A stretch of DNA of 64,000 nt from Cliona cf. orientalis (taxonomy: Eukaryota > Porifera > Demospongiae > Clionaida > Clionaidae). Made by a program: the position numbers and the translations under genes. Location: positions 27,205,798 through 27,269,797 of the forward strand of contig OZ005689.1 in the NCBI GenBank assembly GCA_963930775.1. Reading direction: 5' to 3'. This document shows positions 1 through 64,000 of the stretch, piece after piece; the first letter of the stretch is position 1, and every line of letters starts with the position of its first letter. Under the pieces are notes generated by a model. It saw only the letters and a list, made by a program, of their open reading frames with translations. It had not been told where the DNA came from and did not search any database.

Positions 1-663
1 GGCGATGATTGGTCGCTGTATGTAGAACGATTTGAACATTTCGTACTCGCAAATGGAATCAAGGACGAACGAAAGCTACACATGCTGTTGGCACTAGTCG
101 GCGCTCAGACGTATCGATTGCTGACAAATCTGGTGGCACCGAAAAAGTCAGGTGAACACACGTATGCACAAGTGAAAGAAAAATTAACGGCACATCTAAA
201 GCCGAAGCCAATTAAGATCGCCGAACGTTTTCGTTTCTACAAAAGGCAGCAAGAACCGAGCGAGAAAATGGCCGACTACATCGCAGAGCTACGAAGGCTC
301 GCAACCACGTGTGAGTTCGGTACGTTTTTAGATGAGGCACTGAGGGATAAATTTGTCTGTGGCCTATATAAAGAAAGTATTCAACAGAGACTACTAGCTG
401 AGGCAGAGCTAACGCTAAAGAAAGCCTTGGAGATAGCGCAGGGGATGGAGGCAGCCGAAAAGGACTCAAAAGAAATTAAAGCCACCCCCAGGGAGTCTCA
501 GGTGGTCACACAGCAACAAAAACCACAATGTCATCGCTGTTTAGGAGTAGGACACACAGGCGCTGTTTGTCGATACAAGAATCTAAGATGCAACAAATGC
601 CAAAAAATTGGCCACATAGCACGGGCATGCCGGACTAAATCCTCTCTACCCGCTCCGAGATAA
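1..663 (+). pseudogene. gag: Gag fragment with two CCHC zinc knuckles (Gypsy A)
   Basis: The frame is open from the first base of the window, so the true start is upstream. The middle part carries the gag/capsid-like helical pattern with the motif MADYIAELRRLA. The C-terminal part has two CCHC knuckles, CHRCLGVGHTGAVC and CNKCQKIGHIARAC, which in this family bind the element's RNA during particle assembly. The frame closes at a TAA at 661. The same frame is open again to a TGA at 793 and then runs into the protease, so gag and pol were probably once one frame. Confident for the domain; inactive because of the broken downstream frame. Confidence 0.88.
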
Positions 664-1259
664 CCTCAACAAGGACATGGAAACCGAAAAGGAAAGGGGA
701 GGCCACTAAGAGCTCACCAAGTTGAGGTATCTGGGGATGATGGAGAGTATGAGCAGCAACTAGAAGAAGCCGATGATATAGCAGACATCATGTGAATTCA
801 TGCAGTGTCTCCTTCAACTCCTAGAAGCTACAAGGTCTCCATGGAGATCAACAAGATCCCTATCACAATGGAATTGGATACAGGTGCATCTGTGAGTTTG
901 GTTAGTGAAGCCACATGGGCAGACAAATTGAATAAGCCAAGCCTACAATCTTGTACCTTATCACTGCAAAGTTACCCAAACAGAAGCCTCAATGTCCTAT
1001 AGGGCAGTGCCAGGTGGGGGTCAGTGTATATGGGAGAGAAGCTAACCTGCCACTAGTAGTGGTTGAAGGCAGTGGTCCTCCACTGTTTGGTAGGAACTGG
1101 CTCGAGAAGATTCAACTAAATTGGGCTGAAATTGCCAAAATCAATGGGATTACCACCAATCAGTATAGCCCACCGGGTCTGCAGAGCGAAGTATCAGAAT
1201 GTTTTCAAGGAGCTAGGCCAGTGCAAGGGAGTAAAAGGTCATCTCCACGTTCAGGCTGA
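664..1259 (+). pseudogene. pol: Aspartic protease region of Gypsy A
   Basis: The active-site motif LDTGA is readable at about 877-891 and is followed by SLVSEATW. Downstream in another frame (951-1259) is the GRNWLEKIQLNW segment that closes the protease and leads into reverse transcriptase in Gypsy elements. In the family this enzyme cuts the Gag-Pol polyprotein. At least one frame change (near 950) separates the active site from the rest, and a TGA at 793 separates it from gag. It cannot be made as a continuous protein from this copy. Confidence 0.8.
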
Positions 1260-2969
1260 TGCCACCCCAAAGTGTTACCGACCAAGACCCATCCCACTGA
1301 GCATGAAAGAAAAGGTAGAAGCAGAATTAGAAAGAAGAGAAACTGGGAATCCTGGAGAAAATTGAGATAGCGGATTGGGCAGCTCCAATAGTACCAGTAT
1401 CGAAACCAGACAACAGCGTAAGAATGTGTGGGGACTACAAAGACTACGAAGTAACGATCAATCTCCACTTGGATGTAAACCAGTACCCACTACCGAGAGA
1501 AGAGGAATTATTTGCCGCTCTGAATGGGGGGAGTTCATTTCACGAAACTAGATCTATCTGAAGCATACCTCCAGATTGAACTGGACGAGGAGTCGAAGAA
1601 ATTCCTAGTGATCAACACACACAAGGGCCTGTATCAAGTCAACAGGTTGCCCTATGGTGTAGCGTCAGCACCAGCAATTTTTCAACAAACCATGGATCAA
1701 ATCCTACCAAAACTCCCTGGAGTAGCCTGTTTTATCAATGATATCCTCATCACGGGATGCACAGAAGCCGAACATCTCTCAAGTCTGGAAGCAGTTCTCC
1801 AAAAGCTCCAAGAGTATGGACTGCGACTAAAGTTACGAAAGTGCAAGTTTTTCCAGAAATTAGTCGAGTATCTCGGACAAGTAGTGAGCAAGGAAGGAGT
1901 GCAACCGTCCAGAAAGAAGATTGAGGCCATCCTCAAAGTGCAACCTCCAACTGATCTCACTGAGCTGAGATCATTTTTAGGGATGGTAAATCACTATGGC
2001 AAGTACATCAAATTCCTTACTGATTTGAGTGCACCGCTAAACCGGTTATTGAGAAAGGATACACCATGGAATTGGTCGAGTGAATGTCAACAAAGCTTTG
2101 AGAAAATCAAGGATGCACTTACTTCAACGAGAGTTCTCGCACACTACGATTCGAAGTTACCCGTAGGATTGGCTTGTGATGCTAGTGCAGTCGGAGTAGG
2201 AGCCGTATTGTTTCACAGGTATGACGATGGAACTGAGAGACCGATCGCCTATGCCTCTAAGAGCTTAACACCTGCAGAAAAGAATTATTCCCAGATCGAG
2301 AGGGAAGCCCTTAGCATCATCTACGGAGTGAAAAAGTTCCATCAATATCTGTATGGACGAAAATTCCTGCTGTTAACAGACCACAAGCCACTTCTCACTG
2401 TATTTGGAGAAAAGAAAGGCATTCCAGTGATGGCTGCAAGCAGACTGCAGAGGTGGGCAATCATCTTGGCTGCTTACTCGTATACTATTGAATACATACC
2501 CACCAAAGAACACGGAAATGCAGACTGCCTTTCAAGACTACCCATGGAAAATGATCCTATCTTTGAGAAGTACCAAAGTCAGCATTCAATTGTGCACAGG
2601 GTTCAATTGGCAAGTATTCCAATTTCAGCCGACGCAATTTGCAAAGCAACTGAGAGAGATCACATTCTACAAGAAGTTGTTCGTAAGATAAAAAAAGGAT
2701 GGCCAAAATCGAGAAAGAATGTCTCAAAGGAACTCCAACCTTATTTCGATCGATGTTTTCAGTTAACCCTCCAGAGTGGATGCATCTTATGTGGGCCAAA
2801 CGTGATCATTCCCACAATACTAAGAGACCAGGTGCTAACAGAACTCCATGAAGGCCACACCGGTATTGTTCGTATGAAAGCAGTTGCAAGAATGCATGTG
2901 TGGTGGCCAGATATCGACCGAGAGATTGAAAGTTGCGTATACGAGTGCAGTAATGGTCAGAAAAATTGA
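1260..2969 (+). pseudogene. pol: Reverse transcriptase, RNase H and H2C2 region of Gypsy A
   Basis: Reverse transcriptase motifs appear in order: KLDLSEAYLQI, LPYGVASAPAIFQ, and the polymerase box, here FIND where the family has YxDD, followed by YLGQVVSKEGVQPS and FLGMVNHYGKYI. The first catalytic Asp of the box is thus Asn, which should abolish polymerisation. RNase H follows with LACDASAVGVGAVL, IEREALSIIYG and LTDHKPL, then the zinc site HEGHTGIVRMK. The amino-terminal part (1260-1523) lies in other frames than the long open stretch 1524-2969. This is a decayed relative of Gypsy B at 59.3 kb, which keeps YLDD. Confidence 0.9.
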
Positions 2970-4615
2970 AGAAATCCCGCAAAAGCCCCGGTACATCCGT
3001 GGGAACAACCTGGAAAGGCACGGAAACGATTGCACATTGACTTTGCAGGACCTTTTTACAATTCGATGTGGTTGATTTTAGTCGATGCTCAAACCAAGTG
3101 GCCTGAAGTCATTCAAATGAAAAGCACCACAGCCAGCAGGACAATTGAAGTTTTGCGATCACTATTCTCCAGATTTGATATTCCGCACGAGCTGGTCTCA
3201 GACAATGGACCACAGTTTGTTTCGGACGAATACAAGCAGTTTTGTGAGTAAAATGGAATTCGACGTATTCTGGTCGCCCCCTATCATCCGAGCTCAAATG
3301 GTGAGGCAGAGAGATTTGTCCAAACGTTCAAGGCAGCTCTACGTAAAGCAGACCAAAACAGACTTCAACTACAGTGCTTCAAGGCAAGGGAGCAAATTTT
3401 TTTGAACTTCTATTTTTTGAGGTTTAATGAGCTTCACTGTGCTTAATAACATCTACAGATATCATAAAAATCACTTTTATCGTCTTTTTACACAACTCAT
3501 TATCCCCATAATATTATATCGCTAATAGAGAAGCCACACAAGTTCAGGCAGTTTTTGAGCCATTTTTCACAAATCTTGGACAAAAGTGGCAATATCTCAA
3601 GAGTACTTTGGAGTTGTATCTTCAAATTTGGGAATCTGAAACTCTAATACAAGTACATTGAGAGGCTCAAGTGGATTTTCTTAACTCAAAGTACTTTTCA
3701 AATAAAATGGCAAGTTTTTGACACTCTGAAATGACATTTTTAATGATATCCGATAAACCATACTTCCCTTAGCCTTCAAACTTGTGTCCAAGTAACTTCA
3801 TATGGTGCCACATCAGAGGAAAAAGTGCAGTTTCTTAACTCAAAATAAGCTTTTTCTCTGCCAAAAGTATTTCTCAAAGTGGAACCGCTTGTGAAGCCAT
3901 TGAAGCGAGACTAATCAAAATTACATCCCATAAATCCAGCGGTAAATTTCAATATGGTTGTAGAAAGTATAAACCACATTTCATCCCATAATATTAAACA
4001 GAACCACCTTTACAACAATTTAAGCTCAAAATCAAAAAATTTGCTCTCTTGCCTTGAAGCACTGTAGCTCACACAATTCCTTCTCAAGTACAGAACAACT
4101 CCACATCCAGCAACAGGAAAACACCTGCTGAGTTAATCTTTGGTAGATAGGTCAGAACAAGATTGGACTTGCTACATCCTCTGAAAAAGAAAGTCAGAGA
4201 GGAGAAAGAGAACACAAGAAAATTTAAAGTAGGGGAACCTGTCTGGATGCGAAACTATTCTGGTAGAGAAAAGTGGATACCAGGAGTTGTGATATCAAAG
4301 TTGGGTCCATTGAGCTACACTATTGACGCAGGGGGCCAAGAAAATAGAAGACACATTGACCCGTTAAAAAAGAGAGCGATACGTACGAGTGATGATGGTG
4401 ACAGTGTTGATGAAGAGTTCATGCCAGTTACGAGAGAACAAACACAGAATCTTTTGGAACTTGAAGGTGATACTCAGGGTGAGTCTGAGGAGACGATTCC
4501 GGATCCTACTGCTGAGGATGCCAGATCTCAAGTACCTGGCGAAGGTACTCAGCCGAACTTGAAGCGATACAGACTCCGTGCTAATCGAAATGCACCCGAT
4601 CGTTTTGGACACTAG
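2970..4615 (+). pseudogene. pol: Integrase of Gypsy A, split by a MITE
   Basis: Integrase core pieces are present in order: HIDFAGPF with the first Asp, LVSDNGPQFVSDEY with the second, then HPSSNGEAERF with the Glu. Frames change at about 2970 and 3250. The gene is cut at 3371 by a 693-bp inverted-repeat element and resumes at 4066 (KYRTTPHPATGKTPAEL). The C-terminal part 4163-4615 has the KFKVGEPVWMRNY and PGVV segments typical of the end of Gypsy integrases and an acidic tail. No chromodomain is evident. In the family this protein inserts the cDNA copy; here it is broken. Confidence 0.85.
3372..4064. mobile_element. TA-flanked MITE, 693 bp, inside Gypsy A integrase
   Basis: Near-perfect terminal inverted repeats of about 32 bp (left 3372-3403, right 4033-4064), starting CAGTGCTTCAAGGCAAG, are flanked by TA on both sides (3370-3371 and 4065-4066). 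TA duplication points to the Tc1/mariner superfamily. No coding frame lies inside. Removal of the element and one TA brings the two halves of integrase next to each other, which confirms the boundaries. Confidence 0.9.
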
Positions 4616-10055: not shown

Positions 10056-11041
10056 ATGTCGATCAATCCCGGGAAAACGAATGCCTACAGCAAAGATCTA
10101 CGATGGAGAATAGTATGGCAGAGGGAAGCGATGGGATTAGGCCTCAGAATTGTAGCTGGCAACTTAGGGGTCGATCCTTCCACAGTGAGCGAATTGTTTC
10201 CCTGTTCAAATCTACAGGAAGCGTACATGCAGAAGCGACCTTATCCCAAGGATGCCCGACCAAATAAAAAGCTCACTAAAACTGTGCAGCTCACCGTTCT
10301 TCACAAAGTTCTACAATGACCAGGCATATATTTACGCGAGCTTCAGACAGAAGTGTTCATACTTACTGGTGTGTGTGTCAGTGTTTCTTCCCTGTGCACT
10401 TTCCTCCAGAAATCAAACCACTCGTCAAAAAATGCAGATTGTAGCTAAGCAGCAGGATAAAGAGCTACGTGAGCAATTTGCTATTGATGTATCCTTGTAT
10501 CAGCCCCACATGCTAGTGTTTGTGGATGAGACTGGTTCAGATTGCCGAGATGCTATGAGGAAGCATGGATATGGTCTGAGGGGGAAACCCCCAAGATCTT
10601 GCAAGCTCTTAGTAAGAGGAGAAAGAATATATATGATTACTGCCATGAACGAGGAAGGCATTCTTGCGATGAAGGTTCGGGGGTACTGTCAATGGTGATG
10701 ACTTTCTGGACTTCATCCAGAGAGATATATTGCTGACACTCACGCCCTTCAATGGTACAAACCCTAATAGCATTGTCATATTAGACAACTGCTCGGTTCA
10801 CCATGTGTCAGGAGTTGCATCCATGATCACTGAGGTCGGTGCACTTGTCCATTTCTTGCCCCCTTATTCCACTGACTTAAACCCCATTGAGGAATGCTTC
10901 TCAAAGGTCAAGTCATTACTCAAGAGCATGGAAACAACCTGTCAAGACGACCTTGAAACAGATATTTTAGCTGCGTTCTCATGCATTACACCAAGCGACT
11001 GCCAAGGATGGATATCTGACAGTACAGTGTACAATAATTAA
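10056..11041 (+). pseudogene. Tc1/mariner-like transposase (DD34E), frameshifted
   Basis: The N-terminal helix-turn-helix is at 10056-10319 (YSKDLRWRIVWQ, GLRIVAGNLGVDPSTV). A linking segment 10320-10450 is readable only across stops. The catalytic core has LVFVDETGSD (first Asp), VILDNCSVHH (second Asp) and PYSTDLNPIEECFSKVK (Glu), with 34 residues between the last two, the DD34E spacing of Tc1-like enzymes. Frame changes occur near 10320, 10430 and 10700. It carries out cut-and-paste transposition into TA in its family. A second C-terminal fragment of the same kind is at 25.6 kb. Confidence 0.85.
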
Positions 11042-16773: not shown

Positions 16774-19700
16774 GCATGCACACGGGTGTTTCATTGCAAT
16801 GCGCGCGCGGCCCTTTAGTTTATACCGGAAGACGGCGTTAATAATTAATTTGTACATCCTGTTTATGAACCACGCGTTCGTGCCTCATGAATATGAGGAA
16901 TGTTAATCGACCTCACCCAAGTGCAAACAGTCCAGGGTTCATGGCTACCTCGTGGAAAGGTAAAGCTAGTGTAGCTCTATCCAGCACTGAAAGAGCGATG
17001 TAATTTGAATGTTCTGGGATCGACTTACATGCAGTTCAAGTCAGCGATCAACAAACAACAAGCGGTTTCTCGTACTTACAAGATGAGTTCTACCAGCAAA
17101 GCTGGATTTTTTGAAGACACGAGGTAAGCTGTAAGAAAAAGCTAAATAGTGATAGATTGGAATGCAAAAAGACTTGTTTGGTGTCTTTTTTTTCTGATGG
17201 AGTTACGCGGTCATAAAATATGGATAAAAATGGTGCATTGAATCTTGAACTCGCGCGTGCGCTTTATAACTTTGATGTGAACATGTGGGGGTGAGAGAGC
17301 CTTTGGGGGCAAAAAAAGAGAAGGGGTAGGCATGGGGGAGGGTAGGCAGATATGAGCATCTATGAAGATATACAAAAATAAGTTGGCTTCAGGTGGAGTC
17401 CACTTTTCTTTTTTTAATAGGAGGCTTGGCAGCGACATTGGCAGGAGCTACGTGAAGCAGGTGCTCTTTCATTTTATGTTTGAGCCGTTGAAGTCGATCC
17501 GGCATCACATCAAACATCTTGCCCAACCTATTGAAGTATGTGCATGTACCATTGTTTACCTCCAGGTGCGGCTCTGAAGCTCAGAGATTGTGTCGATGTA
17601 TCGACCTAAACCAATCTTCATGTTGGTGTAGGTGTCTGGTGCTTGAAGATGGAGAAGATGCAGGTGTTCTCCGGTGCATTGGGACTAGGGATGTTGAGAA
17701 TTTGGAAGCATGATTTGAATGAGCCTCCTCCCCCCAGTTTCAACAACACTTCATCTTCTGGAATGGCACCTCCATGCCAGGTAACACGGTGTACACTATT
17801 GAGAGTAGCTCATCATAAAGGATGATTTTGTGTTGGTTATACTTACCCTCTACTATCATCGCTGCTCTGGTTTAGGAGCGATTCAATCTTCTCCCACAGA
17901 CGAGGAATGTAGGCAAGAGGGACTTCCTTGATAACTTCTCCTTCATCCTTATGATTGAAGGACATTGGAGCCCACTCTGCCTCAAGGTTGTCACCTATCA
18001 ACTCTGCTGCCTCTATCCTCATCCTCTTCTCACTGGCAATGGTAAGACCCCACTCCTTCATCCACCTATTTTTTCAGTAGTTTGGAGTTGAGCCCATCTT
18101 GGGTGAGGTATTCTTACCTCCTCATAATCCGTAACTTGCTCCAGGGGATGCTGAGGTCCGCTTTCAGTGCTACTGACTGCTTGACTGAGATGCGGAAGCC
18201 ACCCTCAGCCCGTCTGATCTCCACTATCAGCTTCCTTCTCTCTTCTTGACGGCAACCATGGAGCTCGTGTGCCAGCTGGGTGGTATCATCCCCAGCGCTA
18301 ACAGCAAAACGAACACTTGCCAGGGAATGTGACCTTTTCCGGATGGTTCGTGGGGCCGCCTTTCCTGATGGCACTTGTGCCTGACTCACCCGTACAAAGG
18401 TCATTGGCTATGATTGTATGTACATTATTATTATCCAAGCATGTGTCCATATTAAATGATTCTGTGCATACCCTCCCTCCTGTCTTCATTTGCAGAACAT
18501 CCTCCGGACTACCAGACATGGAGCGTCGAGCAAGTGATGTCTGAAGCTTCTGCTCTACTGGGGTCAAAGGTGAAGTGAGCGGTCTCCTCAGAACATCTTC
18601 TACACTACTATCGGAAGAGACTCGATGAGTGTGAGTGGTACAGCCACCCTTTGCATGGTCAGTGTGTGCATCTAACTGCACATGACTCTGGTACCTCCCA
18701 CAGATCACACACAGACTTCCCAACAGGTGCAGAATCAGTGTGGATGCTGACCTGATGCCTGTGCTGTACTCTCTGAGATGGTGGTCATAGCAGCAAGGGC
18801 AAGCCAAATCACTACTGTGCTGTATCCAACTGCACAAGCATTCCGCACACACGACAGACTGACATGACACGATCTCAACTGGAGAAGTAAGCACCCCACA
18901 GCAAATCAGACATGTCAACTCTGTGAGAGCCCCTTGTGTGCAGATATCAACTTCAGCGAGAGGAGCAAAAGGAGGTGGTGCTATCTTCCGAATATGATCA
19001 ACACAGTACCTGGGACTTATGGTCGGCGGTCAACCAGCCGTGCGTTTGAGTTTCTTCGGCCTCCCTCTTCGTTGAAGCGAGTGGTAGTGCTCACACACTT
19101 GACAGCTGTCCTCTGCATGGGTGCACCATCCTTCAAACACCACAGTCATGTGCTGATACTGCTTCACTGCACTGGATGCTTTAAGCAGGACGATCTTGCA
19201 GGAGTGGCAAAAGAACTGGGGGTGAATATCGGGGCTGTCGGACTTGATGGAGATTTGGAACACCTCCATAAGCTGCTCTTTGAAATCAGAGCACAGGTGC
19301 TTCACCTTCACTGCCTTTGTCACTACCTGCCTGCCACAGATCCGACAAAGTCTCCCTAGAGCAGCGCTATGATCCATCTAAAGCATATAGTATATTATTA
19401 TTGCAGTAATTATTTGTACTATTTTTGATGTGGATTATGTTGTAGGGAAAAAAGGACACTCTACCTTATCTTCAGCAGGATGTAGTACAGCTATCAGAGG
19501 GTTGGTTGACCACAAGGAGTAGACCGTGAAAATTCCCTTGCCACCAAGAAATGAATATTTACTAGGTGCACTCGCTCGGCTTCTTTGTGGTTGCAGCTGC
19601 ATAGGGCCCGCCAACGGCATGCGCAGTACTGTATAGTATGAATTATTACTGCGCAGACGGTGCCAGATGGTCTGCAAGGGTTGGTTCTCATGTGGAACCG

Positions 19701-19867
19701 ATTATCATAACTGTAGTGTAGTATTTACGATTTTGATTCCATAGTAAGGTATATACATAGTATATGTTGCTATGCGAAATGAACGCGTTGCTACGGCGAG
19801 CCACGCCCACCCGCGCACTACCGTATTATTCGACTAAAGGGCCGCGTTGAAACACCCGTGTGCATGC
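16774..19867. mobile_element. Putative TIR-bounded unit enclosing the RAG1-like gene
   Basis: Left end 16774-16819 reads GCATGC then ACACGGGTGTTTCA, then, after 12 extra bases, CGCGGCCCTTTAGT. The right end 19832-19867, read inverted, has GCATGC, ACACGGGTGTTTCA and CGCGGCCCTTTAGT without the 12 bases. That is two matched blocks of 14 bp plus the palindrome GCATGC, which can be read as a 6-bp duplication (element then 16780-19861) or as part of the repeats. The only gene inside is the RAG1-like gene. Two separate MITEs in opposite orientation are the alternative. Confidence 0.55.
17389..19377 (-). CDS. RAG1-like protein: N-terminal region, RING, C2H2 finger and nonamer-binding-like region; six exons
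   Basis: Exons (minus): 19377-19035, 18920-18472, 18407-18118, 18065-17847, 17795-17560 and 17527-17389, about 558 codons. Introns are 114, 64, 52, 51 and 32 nt with GT-AG ends in phase; the first removes a TGA at 19030-19032. A TAG immediately precedes the ATG. Exon 1: LCRICG, HPQFFCHSC, SCQVCEH and basic RRGRPKKLKR, matching the order in the RAG1 N-terminus. Exon 2: RING (CLICCGVLTSPVEIVSC, CxxC pairs) and C2H2 finger LCVICGRYQSHVQLDAH. The exon 2/3 junction makes GGRP, as in the RAG1 nonamer-binding domain. Exon 4: RIEAAELIGDNLEAEWAP, like the NBD end. Exon 5: IPEDEVLLKLGGGGSFK, the start of an RNase H-like core without its expected Asp. One base is missing near 17644. The C-terminus carries PIKKRKV, a nuclear localisation signal. 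Most of the catalytic core is absent. In RAG1 the RING is a ubiquitin ligase and the core cuts DNA; only the former could remain here. Confidence 0.8.
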
Positions 19868-21733: not shown

Positions 21734-21971
21734 TACGGCTCTATTACGCAATCTAACTCAATTATGTGATGGTTTCCAGATTTCCTGAAGGCAGCGGTGA
21801 CCTGCAAATGACACCATAACTCTTGAATGGGCTAAAAGTATACAGGATATACAATCGAAATTCAGTAAGCAACGTCAAAACACCACATTTGAGACATAGA
21901 AAAGAGATATGTAGCAGGTAGCACCTTAACAGAACTCTTGTGAAAAGGTCCATCTCATTCCAGTGATAAAT

Positions 21972-22631
21972 GTGACCGGATTTGGGAAAACCCTCCGTAA
22001 GGGATCCGCGCGCGATTCGCGCAATGCGCGTTTTTAGTAGCTCAGGTCGAAATTTGTCAAAGTCCAGATTTTGTCATATACTTGTCGAACAACCCTTCTT
22101 CTGCCGTCTTCTACGGAGGCTAGTCGTGCTATACGAAGGCGAAATAAGCCTTCATTTTGACCCACCTAGTCGGCACAGCCACCGTACACGGAGCCCGTTG
22201 CTATGGGCGGTAATTAGAATTCTCTACCTAGATACAGCTAGATTCATCGAACTACTGTACGTTCGCTCACCTTTCTAGCTTCTTGGGCATCTAAGAACAA
22301 TCGTCTGTCGTTGTCAACAACGAAATTCAACTCTTGCTCAATCTTTACGTTCATTTCGAACGGCTCCGCCCAGGTCCATTTAATTGATTTCCGGGTCACG
22401 CGTAGTATGCGGAAACGCCATACGCGTGCATAGCAACGCCTTCAGACCGTAATTTCTCGATTATTGGGGGTGTGGCGCGATCGCAAACAAAGCGCTGTAT
22501 CTCTACAACGAAGTGCGCGATCGGCCTAAGACTTGAACGCGGGTTAGCTCTATGGTAGAGCTTATCAACCATGCATCAAACTCAATTTTCTGAAAAAATC
22601 TCATACGGAGGGTTTTCCCAAATCCGGTCAC
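21972..22631. mobile_element. TIR element, 660 bp, carrying a promoter-like region and first exon
   Basis: The ends GTGACCGGATTTGGG...CTCCGTA are inverted copies of about 28 bp, flanked by AAAT on both sides. On the minus strand a short ATG frame (22290-22271, MPKKLER) ends at a GTGAGC donor. The same exon and upstream region recur in opposite orientation at 45261-45755. It looks like the 5' part of a longer transposon gene kept in a non-autonomous element. Confidence 0.75.
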
Positions 22632-23472
22632 AAATTTGATAAAGACATGTGCATGTAGATGACTGACTTGTCACTTATTGTAGCACACTGGCAGATAGGC
22701 TTCTTGGTTTGTTGTGCTAACTGCTGACACGGCACTAGCATTGCTGTATGGCACACGTGATACTGCTGCATAATTATGTGTACGCATATACGCAATCACA
22801 TGCAATGTGTGTGCATGTGCACGTATTCTTGTGGTTTACTTCTTGCAAGATTATTGTGCTTTGATCTGTATGAGCAGTAATAGTAATCATGTAATCTGCT
22901 CAGTGCACTTGCTGCTTCGTTTCTTATTCCAATATGAACAGTGCTGAGGGTTTAGCACCAGTGATGTTATGGAGAGTATAATCATATTTTGTGGGAGGGA
23001 GTCAATCTCATTTGGAGGTCCATGGTTATAAGTACACGTATAGAGGGTCACATATATAACCCACCAATATACCATCGATATACCCTATCCCCTAATGAAA
23101 AGTACTACCCCCCTCCAATCAAGTTAGTTCTCTGAAGGCAAACCAAAATGCGCTTGCCCATTTCAGTTAGAACACTATTGTAGCATCTACACAAGTTAGG
23201 GTGTCTTATAAAATGTTTCGCTGGTATGGGATGGGGGAGGTGGTGGGAGTGGAATGTGTTGAAGCACTGCCATCTAGGGAGATCTGGGGTCACCCCCTTC
23301 CCCAAAAAGAAGTATTTTAAACACCTGAGATCGACATTTCAGTCACCTTTTGACCAAAATTAGTGTTGATTTCAAAGCAATATGATCATCACCTCCCCTT
23401 TGACCACACACAGCACTATGAAGGACTATTCACGGTTCCTTCTCCGTTGCTTTGTTCTCCACCGCTTAACTA
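22632..23472. other. Non-coding stretch
   Basis: No gene recognised. Local TGTGTGCATGTG runs lie near 22800. Confidence 0.4.
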
Positions 23473-28357: not shown

Positions 28358-30460
28358 TTGCCAGATCGGATAAAATATAAGGCAACCATTCATCGAGGTA
28401 AAGCTAGAAGCTTTTGTTCAAAGTGGTATGAGTTTCACGATTGGTTGGAATATTCTCCCAAGACGGATAAAATGTTCTGCTTTGTGTGCCGTGCATTTGC
28501 TCACAAAGTTATTGGAAGCGTGGGTCAAGTTGATCCTGCCTTTACGACATCTGGGACCCAAGCAAGTCGGAAAGATGCAAGAAAAGTACTTTCCAGACAT
28601 CAAGCTAGCTTCGTTCATAAGCAAGCAGCATTATGTCAGAAAGATTTTGAGACCATAACACCAATTAATCTCCAGCTGGATAAAGCCGCTGCTATTGAAG
28701 CATCTAGGCTTAAGGAGCAACAAGAGAGAAATCGGCAGATCCTGTATCGTATAATTGATGTTGTTGTTTTGGCCAAAACTGGTCACCCTTTGAGAGGTCA
28801 TCGTGAAAATAGTGACTCTCAAAATCGAGGCCTTCTTTTAGAAATCACGCATCTTTTGGCACAATATGATCCTGTTCTGAAGGAACACTTTCAAAATAGC
28901 CCCAGAAATGCTACTTATGTATCAAATACCATTCAAAATGAAATAATAGCTGCTCTATACCAGAATATGATTGAGGAGCTCAAGAAAGAATTTCAAGCAG
29001 CTACTTGTTTTAGTGTAATGATGGATGAAGCAAGTGACGCAGGATATAAAGAACAAGTGTCAGTTGTTGTGAGGTATGTGGATGTATCCTTTGTAATTCA
29101 GGAGAGACTTGTGAATATAGAATGTACTGATAGCACTGATGCTGAAGCATTACTTCAAATTTTATTAAACAGTATTACAAAAGTTGGGTTAACAATTGAT
29201 AAGCTTGTTGGCCAGTGCTATGACGGTGCCAGCAATATGAGTGGTGCAATTGCTGGTGTGCAGGCTAAGGTAAAAGCCCTTCAACCGAGAGCAATATATA
29301 CTCACTGCTATTCTCACTGTACTAATCTAATCCTTGTCGAAGCGATATCCAGCAACCAATATTCAAGAAATTTCTTTGGTGTGTTGCAGAACCTCTATAC
29401 GTTTCTAGAAGCTAGTCCACACCGTCATGCCAAGCTTGAGGCTGTAATATTCCAAGTAACTTCCAAACCCCGTATAAAGTCAATGAAAAAATTGTCAGAT
29501 ACACGATGGGCATGCAGGATAGATGCAATTTTGGCTGTTTATGAAATTATTCTGCAATACAGCTTTAGATGAAATTCAAGATAATTCATCGAATGGTCGT
29601 GTATCTTCAGAGGCGTGTGGACTCAGACATCAGATGCTTAAATTTGACTTTTTGATCTGCTTAGTAGTTCTAAAAGACCTCCTCTCTAAATGTCAAACCT
29701 TTAGTAACTACCTTCAGAAGGAGGATATTGACATTGTTTCTGCTTTGCAAGTAGTAGACTCAACAGTGAAAACTGCAATCAATGCGAAATGAAACTGCAT
29801 TCAAAATTTTTTATGATGAAGCTTCAAGGCTCGCTGAAGAAATGGATATAGAAATTGCTCTACCACGTCCAAGAAAGGTCACTAGGCAGGCGTCTTGAAC
29901 ATCATGAAAATCAGCACTTTCTAACAAGTAATGAAGAAATCTTTCGTGTCACCTTTTATGAAGTACTAGATATCATGATATCTGAATTTGGTAGAAGATT
30001 TAACCAAGAATCTAGGCAATATCTGACTTTACTGGGCGACCTTCAAAACAGGAAGATACCAGATGAAGCCAACCTTGCCAGTGTTGCTAAAACTTTCAAT
30101 CTAGATCCTATTGCCTTGAAGACAGAATGGACACTGCTAGTGAATGATCATGTGATTGATGCTACCAAACCCTACAAGATTTTGCAGCAGTTGGCAGAAA
30201 AGAAGAGAACTGATGTTTATGTTGAACTCACCTCGCTTTTAACCGATTATACGCGAAATGTACGCGCGTGCGCGTTCCTGAACAGCGAAATTAATTTGAG
30301 GCGGAGAGTAATATTTGAATCATGTGACTACCAGGGGTCATACTTCGCCAACGCTTCATTTTTTGTATTGGCAACTGATGGCAATCGTGAAGAGCGATTG
30401 CTAGGCTATCTACCAAGCCCAAGATCGTCGTTTAGTGAGCGTCTGACGGAGTACAGCTGA
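28358..30460 (+). pseudogene. hAT-family transposase-like gene (ZMYM1-like, DUF4371), 3' part broken
   Basis: The first 404 codons (28358-29572) are open. A TTF-type zinc finger is at about residues 18-60 (CSKWYEFHDWLEYSP, KMFCFVCRAF). A DUF4371/RNase H-like region follows, with LAKTGHPLRGH, FSVMMDEASD and GQCYDGASNMSG, the last two carrying the likely catalytic Asp residues of hAT enzymes, then HCYSHCTNLI. The remainder is in other frames (29523-29792 and 29855-30460, RFNQESRQYL to EKKRTDVYVEL). The hATC dimerisation segment (SATAERTFS) is not here; one lies at 44.7 kb. It is a decayed transposase; a host gene of the ZMYM1 kind is the alternative. Confidence 0.8.
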
Positions 30461-41066: not shown

Positions 41067-43558
41067 CAGGAGTGGCCAACTGCGGCCCCTGGCAAATTTT
41101 TTGCGGCCCCTATCCAGACTGCTAGTATAGTAATTGTATAGCTACTGTCACTCTGCATGCAAAACGCGCCAACTAGTACGTAGCAGTATAATGTTATTTA
41201 GTGCGCATGCGTACTCTAGCTAGTTTTATCTAAAGTGGGTGTGGCCTGCGACACAGGTACGAATGTACTGTGCATCAAATGGAGGAGCAAGAGTACTCAG
41301 TTGAATCATGCTATGTTTTGCTCGTAAAAGATCGGCCTCAGAGTTGGACTCAAGTTTGTCTGATGCTTCTGGCTCGGAGTCTGGTGCCAGCAGTAGCGGT
41401 GGTGACCGACGCTGTGACACTGAGGAAGCTAGCAACAAAAAACGTAAGCCGGGAGACTGTAGGCGCCTATGGCACCCCGAGTTGGAGACCACTTAACTTG
41501 TATCATATGATAGTAAAACAGATACTTGTACTTGTTTGAAATGTAACGGTAGAATACATACTGTAAAGAAATATAACCTGCAAAGGCACTGTGAGAGTAT
41601 GCATCCTGATACCAAGGAGTGGAGTGATAAAAAAAGGAAGCTTTTTGTACAGCAGGCAAAACAAAAGCTGAAACAAATGCAGCAATGTCTTTCACAGACA
41701 TTCGTCTTGAGCACCTTACCCTTACCACAGCTAGCTTCATACAAATTAGGGTTTACTCTTGTGAAACATCACAAGCCATTGGCATTTGGTGAGGCAGTTG
41801 TTGAGTGGGCAACTTCGAGTGACCCCGAGTCAAAGGTCTTCCCGACTATGCCAAAAAGTCGGCAAACTCTCACACGACGTGTATCTGAAATGGCTGATTT
41901 CATCCAGACTGAGAATCTATCAAAGATTCAGTCTTCTCCATGCTGGGGTATTCAAATGGATGAAAGCACTGATAAAGGTGACTTTGCGCAGGCAATCCTA
42001 TATTCCAGGTATGCTGACATGGAATCGTGCTGCATTAGGACTAACTTCCTGACAATACTGAGGGTAGAAGGTAGCCCAAATGCCGATAACCTATATGAAA
42101 CTTTGAATGCATATGTAGAATCACATACTTTACCAAAGCAGAAACTGGTATCTTTCGCTAGCGATGGTCATGCGGTCTGAAGGAAGAGGCGTATCAGGAC
42201 ACCTCAGGAGGAACTACAACCCTTCAATTTTCACCCAACATTGTATTGTGCATAGACAGGCTCTAGCAGCTAAGGATGGGCTTGAAAAACTACCAAACAG
42301 TGTGCATAAGACAGTAGATGATGTGACGAGGTATGCGTAAGGAAAAGCTCCAAGCCATTATTGAAATGAGTGAAGAGGAGCATGAATATCAACAGTTGGT
42401 TACATACCACAAAGTCCGGTGGTTGTCACTAAATGACTGTGTTCAAAGGTTCACAGATCTATTGCCAGAGATAGTACGCTACTTTGAGCAGGAAGCACAG
42501 AACACTGCAAATTGACCAAGTGAGCGTGCTAAACTTCAAGAGATTCATGATGGAATAGTAGACCCACAATTTCAGTTGTATCTTTATTTTCTCCAAAGTC
42601 ATCTACCAATCATAGCCAGCATCAACACTCAACTTCAAAAGAGCAACCAAGACCTTTTCACATCATACCAGAAAATACCTAGTTTCAAGAATGCCCTCCT
42701 TGAGCCTATACTTAACCAAGTGGATGATGGTATGCAAGATGGTAATATCCGAACAGATATTGATGACATAGACTTTGAGAGTAGCCAATTTTAACAGTTC
42801 AAGGAGCAAGTAATATCGAGTGGCCAACTCTCCAATGCTCAATTACATGAAGTCATGAAGAATGTTTCCAACTTCACTGTTGCCATTGGAAGATCACTTG
42901 AGTCGCGTTTCCCAGAAATGGACTTTGTTGTCCATAACATGAGCTTTCTCTGTCCTACAAATAGGAAGCATTCTAGGTGTGATATAGAGGCAGTCATCCA
43001 AAAATACTGCAAAGATTCAGTCAATGTCACAACTGCAAAGATGCAGTACAGTGTTTACAGGAATGATGAATCTCTTACTCATCTCTTCATCAATTGTGAA
43101 CAGCAACCCGATACCTTCTTCTGCAAAATAGCACAGATGCCAGAGTATGATCAATTTGGATTGCTTGCAATGATTCTGATGTGTATGAGTCCAGACACGG
43201 AACGTGGTTTCTCCAGTATGAATCTCACTAAAGACAAATTCTCAATTCGACTGAGCCAGGATAACCTACAAGCTCGCCTTACTGTTAATATGGACAATAG
43301 GAAACTAGATTCATTTCCATGGCACTCACTCAATCTCAGAGTATGCATTTCATATATTAATTGTATTTATATCAAAAAACAGCATATTAATTATTATTAT
43401 AAAAATTAATGTTGAAAAATATGATCATACTCTAGGCATGCAGCATGCAATTGCAACACTACCATTCATTAGCTATTGGTGATGTACTGAAGTGGCCCCA
43501 ACTAGTGCCTTAATATTGAGATCTTGGCCCATGGACTTCAGTACCTCGGCCACCCCTG
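41067..43558 (+). mobile_element. hAT DNA transposon, 2.5 kb, decayed
   Basis: Ends CAGGAGTGGCC and inverted CAGGGGTGGCC, the classic hAT terminus, flanked by GCATGC at 41061-41066 and 43559-43564. Because GCATGC is a palindrome, an 8-bp duplication that has since decayed cannot be excluded. It sits inside the TA-flanked element 40957-43879. Confidence 0.8.
41308..43409 (+). pseudogene. hAT transposase with BED finger and hATC, several stops
   Basis: Plus-strand fragments in order: CFARKRSASELDSS (41308), a BED-type finger CNGRIHTVKKYNLQRHCESMH (about 41541), QTLTRRVSEMADFI, WGIQMDESTDKGDFAQ with the likely catalytic Asp, LVSFASDGHAV, FTQHCIVHRQALAA (about 42230), TYHKVRWLSLNDCVQRF, and at the end MSPDTERGFSSMNLTKDKFS with RLSQDNLQARL, the hATC dimerisation region. 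It resembles the ZBED/GTF2IRD2-like branch of hAT. Frame changes at about 42180, 42330, 42515 and 42795 inactivate it. Confidence 0.8.
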
Positions 43559-59292: not shown

Positions 59293-59470
59293 CTGTGAAC
59301 ATCAATTATCTATGTATAGTGATTTAATGCTAATGTCTGCAATAGCAGCCCTTACTGTCTGTCACCTCTCTATTTAAGCTGTGACTACTTTGTGTATATA
59401 TGCCAGTATCAGTTGTGCTACATTGATATGTTTGAGCTTCTTGGCTAGGGGACTCCGCGGCGTTACAAAT

Positions 59471-59488
59471 TGGTGTCAGGAGTGGGAT
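59471..59488 (+). promoter_or_regulatory. Primer binding site, tRNA-Leu type
   Basis: TGGTGTCAGGAGTGGGAT is complementary to a tRNA 3' end finishing CTGACACCA, as in animal tRNA-Leu. It overlaps the first base or two of the gag start codon at 59487. Confidence 0.7.
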
Positions 59489-62400
59489 GTCTGATCACGA
59501 ACCACAGCAGAGCTCTAGTAGTGACGAAGATGCTCCTACAGAGCCTACGCGCTACATTCGAGTCAGCCTTCGCCCACCACCCCGCTATGCCGCATCAACA
59601 ACGGACCTGGATCTATGGCTCAAGCGATTTGAGCTTTATGTGAGACGTATTGAACTACCTGAGGAACAGTGGGCAGCCGAACTACTGCCGCTATTGGATG
59701 ATGAAGCATTTCGTGTTGTATCACAATTGGGGCTAGAAAGTTCCACCGATTATGGAGCCATAACAGCGAGCCTGAAGCACCAGTTTTCTCCGAAAGGGAA
59801 CGAGTTGGAGTGGCAGCATAAATTGCAGACTCGGAGACAACAACCAGGGGAGCAGTTAGTACAATACGCTGGAGCCTTGCGAATGCTCGCTGATAAAGCC
59901 TACCCCAGCTGGACTGCCGAGCAGAGACGGGAAGTTCTTCGGAACCATTTTATTCAAGGGCTAGTATCGCCGTCCGTACAATTACGCCTGATGCGTGAAA
60001 TACCAGCGACATTCGACGACGCTTTGCAGTTGGCTGTGCAGCTACAGTCGGTAGAAACGGCACAGAAGCGATTGCACAAAGAAGTACACCATGGAGAAGC
60101 GACCACCATGGCCGTACAACTTGGTGAAGACCAAACTGCTTCACGTGCAGAAGCTACTGCCTCGAATGCAGTCGCGAAACCGGACTTCAACTCTACGTCA
60201 GCTAAATTAGAAGAAATGGCGAAGGAAATCCGCCGACTCTCCTCTGAATTAGCCCAGCTAAAGACAGGGCAGGCTACAACCGAAGGCCAGAACCAACCAC
60301 AGCGGCAACAGCCTGGAGCTGGCCCGACTTGTTGGAATTGCAACGAACGTGGACATGTGCAACGATCCTGTCCACATCCGAGACGAGGGGGGCGTGGTCG
60401 CGGAAGGATGCGTGCATCTGGCCAATACAGATCCACCTCGGCATTCAACTGCAACTCGGTGCTTGTCGTGGAAGGTTATGTCGGAGATCGTCTAACGCAT
60501 ATGCTGATCGACACAGGATCTGACGTCTCGATCATACGTGAGGATGTCTGGAGATCTATCAGCAAGGATGACCACTTGCACAGTATATCAGGACAACCAG
60601 TAACGGTGGCTAATGGAGGTGAACTACATGTACTCGGCCAAGCAAAGGTTGTCCTACAAGTGGGAGATATGAGAGACGACTTCACGTGCTTGATAGCCAG
60701 AGAACTGACGCAGGAGTGTATTCTTGGATCAGATTTCCTTCTGAAACATCATTGCATCATCGATCTAAGTCAACAGACCCTCCGATTACACATTGATGGC
60801 CAACCTATACCCTTCCATGTGAACAATACTGACCCCCAAGAGCCGAGGAGCGTCTGCCATGTCTTCTTCCCGGAAACGACAGTGCTACCCGGACAAACAG
60901 AGGTGGAGCTACCTTTATCACTGACAACTTCCACCAATCACGGTACTGTCTTATTGGAGCCTGCTAGAGCATTTATAGAAAAATATGGTGTTTTAATTGC
61001 TCGCTCTCTGACCCTTGCAGGCACTGGAACAACCATGGTGCGTATGCTCAATCCTTCTTCCGCTCCCGTGACCATCTACCAGAACGAGAAAGCTGGAGAA
61101 CTACACCCAATAACTGGTGAATCTGTGTGCACCATCCAACAGACCAAGCCAAGGAAGCAATGTCGTGACCCTGCTCTAGTAGAGAAAGCTATAGAGTTGT
61201 TGCTACCCGATTCTCCAGAGCTGAAGCCATCGGATAGGCAAAAACTTCAGGAGCTGTTGTACAATTTTTCTGATGTAGTATCAGTGGATGCCAATGATTT
61301 GGGCCAAACTACTCTTGTGCAGCACGAGATAAACACGGGTGATGCCACACCCATCCGTCAACCTCCAAGAAGACTGCCGTTTCACCAACACAATGCCGTT
61401 CGAGAATTGGTTTCCGATATGCTACAACGTGGGGTGGTGGAACCATCTCAAGGCCCCTGGTCGTCGCCAATCGTATTGGTCAAGAAGAAGGATGGGACCA
61501 CACGGTTTTGTGTGGACTTCAGAAAAGTAAATGATGTGACAAAGAAGGATGCCCACCCACTCCCGAGAATTGATGATACGCTGGATACGCTTGGTGGAGC
61601 CCAGTGGTTCACAACGCTTGATCTTGCCAGTGGATACTGGCAAGTGGAGGTTGCCCAAGCAGACCGTGAGAAGACTGCATTTGCTACACCAGACGGGCTC
61701 TACCAATTCCGTGTGATGCCCTTTGGCCTCTGCAACGCGCCAGGAACCTTCCAGCGTCTAATGGAATGTGTCCTACAGGGTCTGCATTGGTCCACTTGCC
61801 TGGTCTACCTTGACGATATCATTATATACAGCAGAACCATAGAAGAACACCTGGCAAGGCTGGCAGAGGTATTCACAAGGCTGCGAGATGCTAACCTGAA
61901 AATCAAACCGAGTAAATGCCACCTTCTACAAAGAAGTGTACACTACCTGGGCCATGTGGTTTCTGGAAAAGGTGTGGAAACAGATGCCACCAAAATCGAG
62001 TGCATTGCACAGCTGCCAACTCCTGCTGGAACAAAGGAACTCAAGCAGTTTCTTGGAATGTGTTCCTACTATCGGAGATTTGTCAAAAATTTTGCAAAAA
62101 TAGCGGCCCCACTACACCGCCTCTCGGAAAAAGGGAAAGAATGGCTGTGGACGGATGAATGTGAGCAGGCATTTAGCATGCTAAAGCACCAGCTTATAAC
62201 TGCCCCAATATTAAGCCTGCCTGACTTCAATCATGATTTCACACTCGACATCGACGCAAGTGGAAATGGCTTAGGAGCAGTACTCTCACAAAAAGTTGGA
62301 GATCATGAGCGAGTCATAGCATATGGAAGCAGAGCTCTAACCAAGGCAGAACGGAAGTACTGTGCGACTAGAAGAGAGCTACTCGCACTAGTCTGGGGTG

Positions 62401-64000
62401 TGCGCCACTTCCGTCCCTACTTGTATGGTCGAAGATTCATTGCTAGGACCGACCACAACTCTCTCAAGTGGCTACGTAACTTTAGGGATCCAGAAGGTCA
62501 GGTAGCCCGCTGGCTGGAGATACTGGCTGAATATACTTTTGATGTTGTACATCGACCTGGCCTTCAGCATGGTAATGCTGATGCCCTTTCCCGCTTACCC
62601 TGTAAACAGTGTGGGCTTGGGGGAGAATCAGATGAAGAAAAAGCTATCGAGGTAGCAACAATTTCAACTACTTGGATTCCAAGCTGGACACCTGAGGAGA
62701 TTCAGTACCTGCAAGCTGGTGATTCAGCATTAAAGCAATTCATTTTGTGGCTATCAACTCGCTCGTTGCCAGACAAGTTTCCAAAAGAAGCCCATAGCCA
62801 CCTCCAGACACTCTGGACACAGCGTCATTATCTGGTGCTGAAGAATGGAATACTGTACCGACGCTGGGAAGATGTACCTGGAAAGGGGTTGAATAAGCGC
62901 CTACAGCTCGTCCTTCCCAAGGATAGTGCCACAGAAGTTCTCTCAAAGCTTCATAATGCAGGACACCTAGGGGTAAAGAAAACCCTAGAGAAAGTCCAAA
63001 CTCGATTCTACTGGGTGGGGCAGAGACAAGATGTAGCCGAGTGGTGTAAGGCCTGCCCTGAGTGTGCATCACGCAAGTCTGGACCCAGAAAGCCACGAGC
63101 CCCTATGCAACTCGAGTCGGCTAGCCGCCCCTTGGAGCGAATTGCTATGGACATCTTGGGGCCACTCCCACTTACTGAAAACGGCAACAAGTACATATTA
63201 GTAGTTGGTGACTACTTCACTAAATGGAAGGAGGCGTACCCTATGAAAAACATGGAAGCAACAACAGTTGCCCGCCTTCTAGTGCATGAATTCATTTGCC
63301 GCTTTGGAGTACCAGAGAATCTACACACAGATCAGGGGCACAATTTTGAAGCCGAAATAATCAAGGAAATTTGCAAGCTCCTTGATATCAAGAAAACCCG
63401 AACCAGCCCCTATCATCCACAATCGGATGGAATGATCGAGCGATTCAACAGGACTCTCCTGAACATGCTAAGCACAGCCATCGAAAAGAATTGCAATGAC
63501 TGGGATATGCAACTCCCCATGCTCCTACTGGCATACAGGACTAGCATACAAGAAACTACAGGAGTTACTCCTTTTTCAATTATGTTCGGCCGATCAGCTC
63601 GCTTACCTATTGACATAGAATTCGATCTCCCATATGCAAGCTATGAAGACCCTAAACAATATCAGGAAGTGCTACGTCACCGTCTACAGAAAGCATATGC
63701 AATGGTGCGGGAGCACTCGTCGACAGAACAAAGCCGGCAAAAGCACCTATACGATCGATCAGTAACTGGCTCTCAATACGAGGTTGGTGATGAAGTATGG
63801 TTGCACTGCCCAGCGGTGCCGAAAGGACGTTGCAAAAAGTTTCATCGGCCATGGCAAGGTCCCTTCACTATTGTAAAGGTGATGGACCATTGGGTGTATC
63901 GCATACAGTGCAATGACACACCACGTAAACGCTTGGTAGTCCACTACAATCGCCTAAAGCCCTACCATCGTCCTTTCAACACAGATGTCTATGGGCCAGA
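59487..64000 (+). CDS. gag-pol: Gag-Pol polyprotein of Gypsy B, open to the window edge
   Basis: From ATG at 59487 one frame holds Gag with a CCHC knuckle CWNCNERGHVQRSC (60330), the protease site MLIDTGSDVSII (60501), reverse transcriptase with TTLDLASGYWQVEV, FGLCNAPGTFQ and an intact CLVYLDDIIIYS (about 61799), RNase H with LDIDASGNGLGAVL, RRELLALVWG and RTDHNSLKWL, the zinc site HNAGHLGVKKT with CKACPEC, and integrase with MDILGPLPL, LHTDQGHNF and HPQSDGMIERFNRT, then a GPF/Y segment (RPWQGPFTIVK). Codon phase was checked at all these points and agrees, so gag and pol are fused with no frameshift. No stop was seen in 1,504 codons. Copying of RNA to DNA and integration are the expected roles. 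Confidence 0.92.
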   Translation, partial: MSDHEPQQSSSSDEDAPTEPTRYIRVSLRPPPRYAASTTDLDLWLKRFELYVRRIELPEEQWAAELLPLLDDEAFRVVSQLGLESSTDYGAITASLKHQFSPKGNELEWQHKLQTRRQQPGEQLVQYAGALRMLADKAYPSWTAEQRREVLRNHFIQGLVSPSVQLRLMREIPATFDDALQLAVQLQSVETAQKRLHKEVHHGEATTMAVQLGEDQTASRAEATASNAVAKPDFNSTSAKLEEMAKEIRRLSSELAQLKTGQATTEGQNQPQRQQPGAGPTCWNCNERGHVQRSCPHPRRGGRGRGRMRASGQYRSTSAFNCNSVLVVEGYVGDRLTHMLIDTGSDVSIIREDVWRSISKDDHLHSISGQPVTVANGGELHVLGQAKVVLQVGDMRDDFTCLIARELTQECILGSDFLLKHHCIIDLSQQTLRLHIDGQPIPFHVNNTDPQEPRSVCHVFFPETTVLPGQTEVELPLSLTTSTNHGTVLLEPARAFIEKYGVLIARSLTLAGTGTTMVRMLNPSSAPVTIYQNEKAGELHPITGESVCTIQQTKPRKQCRDPALVEKAIELLLPDSPELKPSDRQKLQELLYNFSDVVSVDANDLGQTTLVQHEINTGDATPIRQPPRRLPFHQHNAVRELVSDMLQRGVVEPSQGPWSSPIVLVKKKDGTTRFCVDFRKVNDVTKKDAHPLPRIDDTLDTLGGAQWFTTLDLASGYWQVEVAQADREKTAFATPDGLYQFRVMPFGLCNAPGTFQRLMECVLQGLHWSTCLVYLDDIIIYSRTIEEHLARLAEVFTRLRDANLKIKPSKCHLLQRSVHYLGHVVSGKGVETDATKIECIAQLPTPAGTKELKQFLGMCSYYRRFVKNFAKIAAPLHRLSEKGKEWLWTDECEQAFSMLKHQLITAPILSLPDFNHDFTLDIDASGNGLGAVLSQKVGDHERVIAYGSRALTKAERKYCATRRELLALVWGVRHFRPYLYGRRFIARTDHNSLKWLRNFRDPEGQVARWLEILAEYTFDVVHRPGLQHGNADALSRLPCKQCGLGGESDEEKAIEVATISTTWIPSWTPEEIQYLQAGDSALKQFILWLSTRSLPDKFPKEAHSHLQTLWTQRHYLVLKNGILYRRWEDVPGKGLNKRLQLVLPKDSATEVLSKLHNAGHLGVKKTLEKVQTRFYWVGQRQDVAEWCKACPECASRKSGPRKPRAPMQLESASRPLERIAMDILGPLPLTENGNKYILVVGDYFTKWKEAYPMKNMEATTVARLLVHEFICRFGVPENLHTDQGHNFEAEIIKEICKLLDIKKTRTSPYHPQSDGMIERFNRTLLNMLSTAIEKNCNDWDMQLPMLLLAYRTSIQETTGVTPFSIMFGRSARLPIDIEFDLPYASYEDPKQYQEVLRHRLQKAYAMVREHSSTEQSRQKHLYDRSVTGSQYEVGDEVWLHCPAVPKGRCKKFHRPWQGPFTIVKVMDHWVYRIQCNDTPRKRLVVHYNRLKPYHRPFNTDVYGP

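Follow-up and report, generated by a model that had tools for sequence, protein, structure and literature searches.

RAG1 is the vertebrate enzyme that assembles antibody genes. The Chapa domain, which resembles the RAG1 N-terminus, has been described in Chapaev transposons of lancelet and sea anemone, followed in two subgroups by a RING, and an ancient fusion was inferred (Kapitonov & Koonin 2015, PMC4411706). The CMCT lineages are described as ending mostly in CA..TG, with 2-5-bp target duplications and the motifs C(2)C and H(3-4)H (PMC12730594). RAGL has been reported in cnidarians and protostomes (Martin et al. 2020), and Transib is described without a RAG1-like N-terminal region (PMC7204232). 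According to PMC8355894, Transib and RAG1/2 transposition both produce 5-bp duplications; the same paper presents N-RAG-TP of Aplysia as an entirely N-terminal-like sequence. The 64,000-nucleotide stretch analysed here (the window) is C1:27205798-27269797 of a demosponge genome, G000 (216.8 Mb, 149 contigs), in which all copy searches were made. With a probability of about 0.9, a RAG1-like locus on its minus strand belongs to a low-copy family of Chapaev-type DNA transposons (CMC superfamily); it is a dead, non-autonomous copy with an internal deletion, and a sister copy has the RAG1 layout.

Element boundaries and copies

Coding DNA of the locus matched six copies in the genome, its own included, at identities from 100 to 89%, and for this reason the locus was suspected to be a repeat. 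It lies between identical terminal inverted repeats (TIRs) that give the element family its CAC...GTG ends (Table 1). Three other copies, L007 (C1), L008 (C5) and L010 (C1), have the same end points as the window element; the four TIR-bounded copies have separate 4-bp target duplications (TGCA, AACC, CAGT and GGAA) and flanks unlike one another. The left-end pattern, allowing up to three mismatches, occurs at exactly these four sites, and its reversed control at none. L009 and L011 are further DNA copies, matching only in part (9.9 kb compared). By its ends, target duplications and copies, the window locus is a copy of a low-copy DNA transposon. The preliminary description had proposed a RAG1-like gene with 17389..19377 as the full unit; that span is only part of the element at 16781-19860, and although the homology to the RAG1 N-terminus is real, its bearer is a dead transposon copy instead of a host gene.

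A repeat at about 21970-22641 of the window, some 2 kb from the element, recurs inside and near L010 (about 3277-3883 and 350-1092) and in L009, and constitutes a nested repeat family.

Table 1. Features of the element in window coordinates
Feature	Position	Strand	Remarks
Whole element: Chapaev-type DNA transposon copy, internally deleted, 3080 bp	16781..19860	-	Identical 13-bp inverted ends CACGGGTGTTTCA; boundaries common to three other copies
TIR, gene-upstream end	19848..19860	-	Inner 14-bp inverted repeat at 19833-19846
TIR, gene-downstream end	16781..16793	-	Inner 14-bp repeat at 16806-16819
TGCA target duplication next to the gene-upstream TIR	19861..19864	.	
TGCA target duplication next to the gene-downstream TIR	16777..16780	.	
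Exon 1: Chapa domain (RAG1 N-terminus), basic patch, RING-like block, finger	18472..19377	-	Pfam and PDB matches; TGA 19030-19032; 9-nt loss near 18937
Intron 1, 64 nt	18408..18471	-	GT-AG; same place and length in L007
Exon 2	18118..18407	-	
Intron 2, 52 nt	18066..18117	-	
Exon 3 (DUF1280 together with exons 2 and 4)	17847..18065	-	
Intron 3, 51 nt	17796..17846	-	
Exon 4: start of DDE core	17560..17795	-	9-nt loss near 17733; 1-nt loss near 17645
Intron 4 stump, up to internal-deletion junction (placement within a few nt)	17538..17559	-	
Last-exon remnant (YFNRLGKMFD...KKRKVDST stop)	17389..17537	-	Comparison with L007 and L008

Gene remains and lesions of the window copy

The minus strand carries, in the order first proposed, LCRICG, HPQFFCHSC, CQVCEH, a basic patch, a RING-like block, a CxxC/His finger-like block and TGGR|P, and matches to Pfam RAG1_imp_bd and to the family profile place this order beyond chance. 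The first 115 amino acids match RAG1_imp_bd at E=1.2e-11, scoring 45.2 bits where 23.3 is the cut-off; with the family profile and structures, this is a match to the RAG1 N-terminus that goes beyond a generic RING.

Across aligned bases the window copy is 98.4% identical to L007 and 96.3% to L008. At the position of its in-frame TGA the frame stays open in L007, L008 and L010. By comparison with L007 and L008, the 9-nt loss in exon 4 has removed the first catalytic Asp, and an internal deletion (1456 nt against L007, 1452 nt against L008) has taken the second Asp, both zinc motifs and the Glu. The 1-nt loss near 17645 shifts the frame and is the base missing from an exon sum noticed earlier to be one short of whole codons. 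Another 9-nt loss lies upstream of the gene near 19826. The deletion junction pattern, with up to two mismatches allowed, occurs once in the genome. Judged from its sequence, the window copy is a dead, non-autonomous, internally deleted element.

Of the five introns in the preliminary description, those of 64, 52 and 51 nt are real, whereas those of 114 and 32 nt are artefacts of the lesions. The only GT-AG interval of 114 nt with a donor at 19060-18991 is 19034-18921, a false intron that arose because the TGA lies within it and is skipped. The 32-nt interval (17559-17528) has the genuine intron 4 donor at its start, but its far end falls within last-exon sequence (YFNRL, coding in L007 and L008) that the internal deletion brought close to that donor.

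The unbroken sister gene and its relatives

L008 has an unaltered 10-exon reading frame of 977 amino acids. This single protein shows the RAG1 layout, with Chapa (RAG1_imp_bd, E=8e-8) first, then a RING-like block followed by a finger, next a region that is DUF1280 (E=8e-14) and NBD-like, and at the C-terminus a DDE core bearing the zinc motifs C(2)C and H(4)H. The N-terminal layout, once described as separate from a complete core, is thus joined to such a core within one polypeptide. Only 487 and 609 nt of L008 flank its coding span (ATG to last codon), leaving no room in the element for a RAG2/RAG2L gene. L007 is similar with a frame loss, and L010 has stops and an inserted repeat. Comparison of L007 with L008 over 976 codons counts 71.5 synonymous and 26.5 non-synonymous changes; the ratio of non-synonymous to synonymous proportions (pN/pS) of 0.108 supports the exon model and selection on the protein, and the L008-type frame has been under purifying selection.

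A protein search returned 40 relatives from 7990 scored candidates. Ephydatia muelleri-type labels are attached to 24 of them (13 named by NCBI and 11 with EukProt 'Em' identifiers), Branchiostoma floridae, B. belcheri, Lytechinus pictus and Asterias amurensis supply one each, and 12 are unnamed. Alignment A1 comprises L008 and 20 of the 40; in it the Ephydatia, Branchiostoma, Lytechinus and Asterias proteins, which are named hypothetical or uncharacterized or known by identifier only, belong to the same family at 30-41% identity to L008. The first CxxC pair of Chapa is absent from nine of the ten Ephydatia models aligned in A1; P0020 and P0022 have neither Chapa nor RING. Residues D498 and D568 are invariant in A1, and C587, C590, H898, H903, E920 and E924 are at least 90% conserved. 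The RAG1-type DDE motifs of L008 and its relatives, lost in the window copy, follow the RAG1 order D, D, C(2)C, H(4)H, E; in mouse RAG1 these are D600, D708, C727, C730, H937, H942 and E962. The A1 profile matches full-length mouse RAG1 over Chapa, RING and finger (E=1.4e-23), and the core of relative P0001 is predicted to have a RAG1-type fold, with matches to RAG1, ProtoRAG and HzTransib.

Alone, the RING-like block (window about 18920-18778, minus strand; L008 about 157-200) falls below Pfam cut-offs (E=0.013 for L007), but it can be aligned with RING structures and also with the RING of RAG1. It has no canonical His between its zinc cysteines, reading SCQSVxC where RAG1 has SCKHLFC, and so ubiquitin-ligase activity of the sponge form is doubtful. 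The same His is missing from P0016 and from the nine Ephydatia rows of A1 that retain the block, and is present in P0023 and P0028.

Comparison with described systems and alternative assignments

The sponge element shares with Chapaev of the Chapa-plus-RING type an N-terminal Chapa followed by a RING-like block, a DDE core with C(2)C and H(3-4)H, CAC...GTG ends and a 4-bp duplication, found in all four TIR-bounded copies; it differs in its sponge host, in the His-less RING-like block and in the internal deletion of the window copy. With vertebrate RAG1 it has in common an N-terminal zinc domain, RING and finger ahead of a DDE core whose motifs come in the same order and whose fold, as predicted for a relative, is also the same, but it is mobile and multi-copy, has no RAG2 and a core hardly similar in sequence, and makes 4-bp duplications. 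ProtoRAG (RAG1L-RAG2L) is likewise TIR-bounded, with a RAG1-like N-terminus on its transposase and the core fold predicted here for a relative; the sponge element lacks RAG2L, has DUF1280 and duplicates 4 bp, not the 5 bp of RAG1/RAG1L. N-RAG-TP of Aplysia, set apart here by its description, is also a mobile element with a protein like the RAG1 N-terminus; L008 differs in its complete core, whereas the deleted window copy looks like such an element.

Several points weigh against the Chapaev-type reading. Beyond the N-terminal part, the A1 profile has no match in mouse RAG1; the core compared with mouse RAG1 by hhalign is non-significant (E=0.043, probability 1.2%), with H937, H942 and E962 in register; and the Pfam RAG1 core model is not listed at E<=10 for the 977-residue L008 protein. 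The core of the family is thus tied to RAG1 by predicted structure, and the protein modelled is P0001 and not that of the window element. The target duplication length of Chapaev, 4 bp, enters as a general rule.

The family is assigned to Chapaev by its features. The ends, duplication lengths and zinc motifs common to the CMCT lineages (PMC12730594) would also suit the same kind of element in another CMC lineage close to Chapaev; this is unlikely, and would make the name wrong and leave the mechanism the same. A relic of a RAG1L-RAG2L (ProtoRAG-like) or Transib transposon would agree with Chapa and RING as in RAG1 and with the predicted core fold of the relative, but is very improbable: the duplications are 4 bp instead of the 5 bp given for Transib and RAG1/2 (PMC8355894), L008 has no space for RAG2L, and DUF1280 is matched where the Pfam RAG1 core is not. 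Equally slight is the chance that the window copy has been kept as a repressor, its 115-residue Chapa peptide dimerising with active transposase and blocking it; the Chapa domain is open from ATG to TGA, but pN/pS over the whole remaining frame is 0.29 against L007 (13 synonymous and 13 non-synonymous changes) and 0.149 against L008, values that indicate no special constraint, and the deletion form is present only once. A host gene spliced as in the preliminary description, with the RAG1 N-terminal layout and no complete core, fits the domain order, the Pfam and PDB matches and three of five introns, but hardly survives the enclosing TIRs and target duplication, the copies elsewhere with different flanks, the TGA, frame loss and deletion junction peculiar to the window copy, and the complete core of L008.

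For a Chapaev-type element, a dimer of the transposase would bind the CAC...GTG ends, cut the element out and insert it at a new site, flanked there by a 4-bp duplication. The window copy would stem from such an insertion, followed by loss of about 1456 nt of its middle and then by decay; the chemistry, the dimer binding and this order of lesions are inferred.

Significance for the origin of RAG1

In place of a sponge RAG1 gene there is a sponge transposase with the complete RAG1 layout, its frame having been under purifying selection, which, with its Ephydatia relatives, bears on whether the N-terminus and core of RAG1 came as one unit or by fusion. We tentatively suggest, as a possibility short of an even chance, that the amino-terminal zinc domain of RAG1 and Chapaev belongs to the superfamily of the zinc-finger associated domain (ZAD), and that the whole layout (ZAD-like dimeriser, RING, finger, NBD-like region and RNase H core) was inherited as one transposase unit at least since the sponge split, not by late fusion of two elements in the vertebrate line. 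The sponge family is new; a non-bilaterian Chapa domain had already been published in sea anemone Chapaev (PMC4411706). The window copy also illustrates how a Chapaev with an internal deletion may be mistaken for an 'N-terminal RAG1' element, a point of possible relevance to the reading of N-RAG-TP.

Host genome and surroundings

The sponge host suggested by the preliminary description is borne out by COX1 and by the Ephydatia muelleri-type labels of 24 of the 40 protein relatives. The nearest named COX1 cluster, at rank 5, is Demospongiae and includes Xestospongia muta (91% identical); four clusters are nearer, the best at 96%, and the next named clusters are cnidarians at no more than 87%. 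COX1 matches lie on contigs C111 and C149, where TGA is read as a sense codon; their scores are equal, and the mitochondrial genome may be assembled twice.

RAG1_imp_bd is found above its cut-off in at least 18 places in the sponge genome and in none of 14 control genomes; a Chapa query gave at least 24 matches and a core-exon query at least 112 exon matches. About 7.6 kb ahead of the window (C1:27197895-27198194) is another, diverged Chapa match with 30% identity and one TGA. Many core-exon matches of 22-32% identity, among them those at C9:7457189, C18:1734821 and C13:7804229, occupy long single open frames, often of about 500-800 amino acids; there is apparently a second, intron-poor relative of the Chapaev-type transposase in this genome.

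Elsewhere in the window, long frames at 1-4612 and 59436-63998 (plus strand), one of 1521 amino acids, look by eye like Ty3/gypsy-type gag-pol, and frames at 10189-11041, 28358-30457 and 41497-43406 resemble, again by eye, other transposases (mariner-like, hAT-like, BED-finger).
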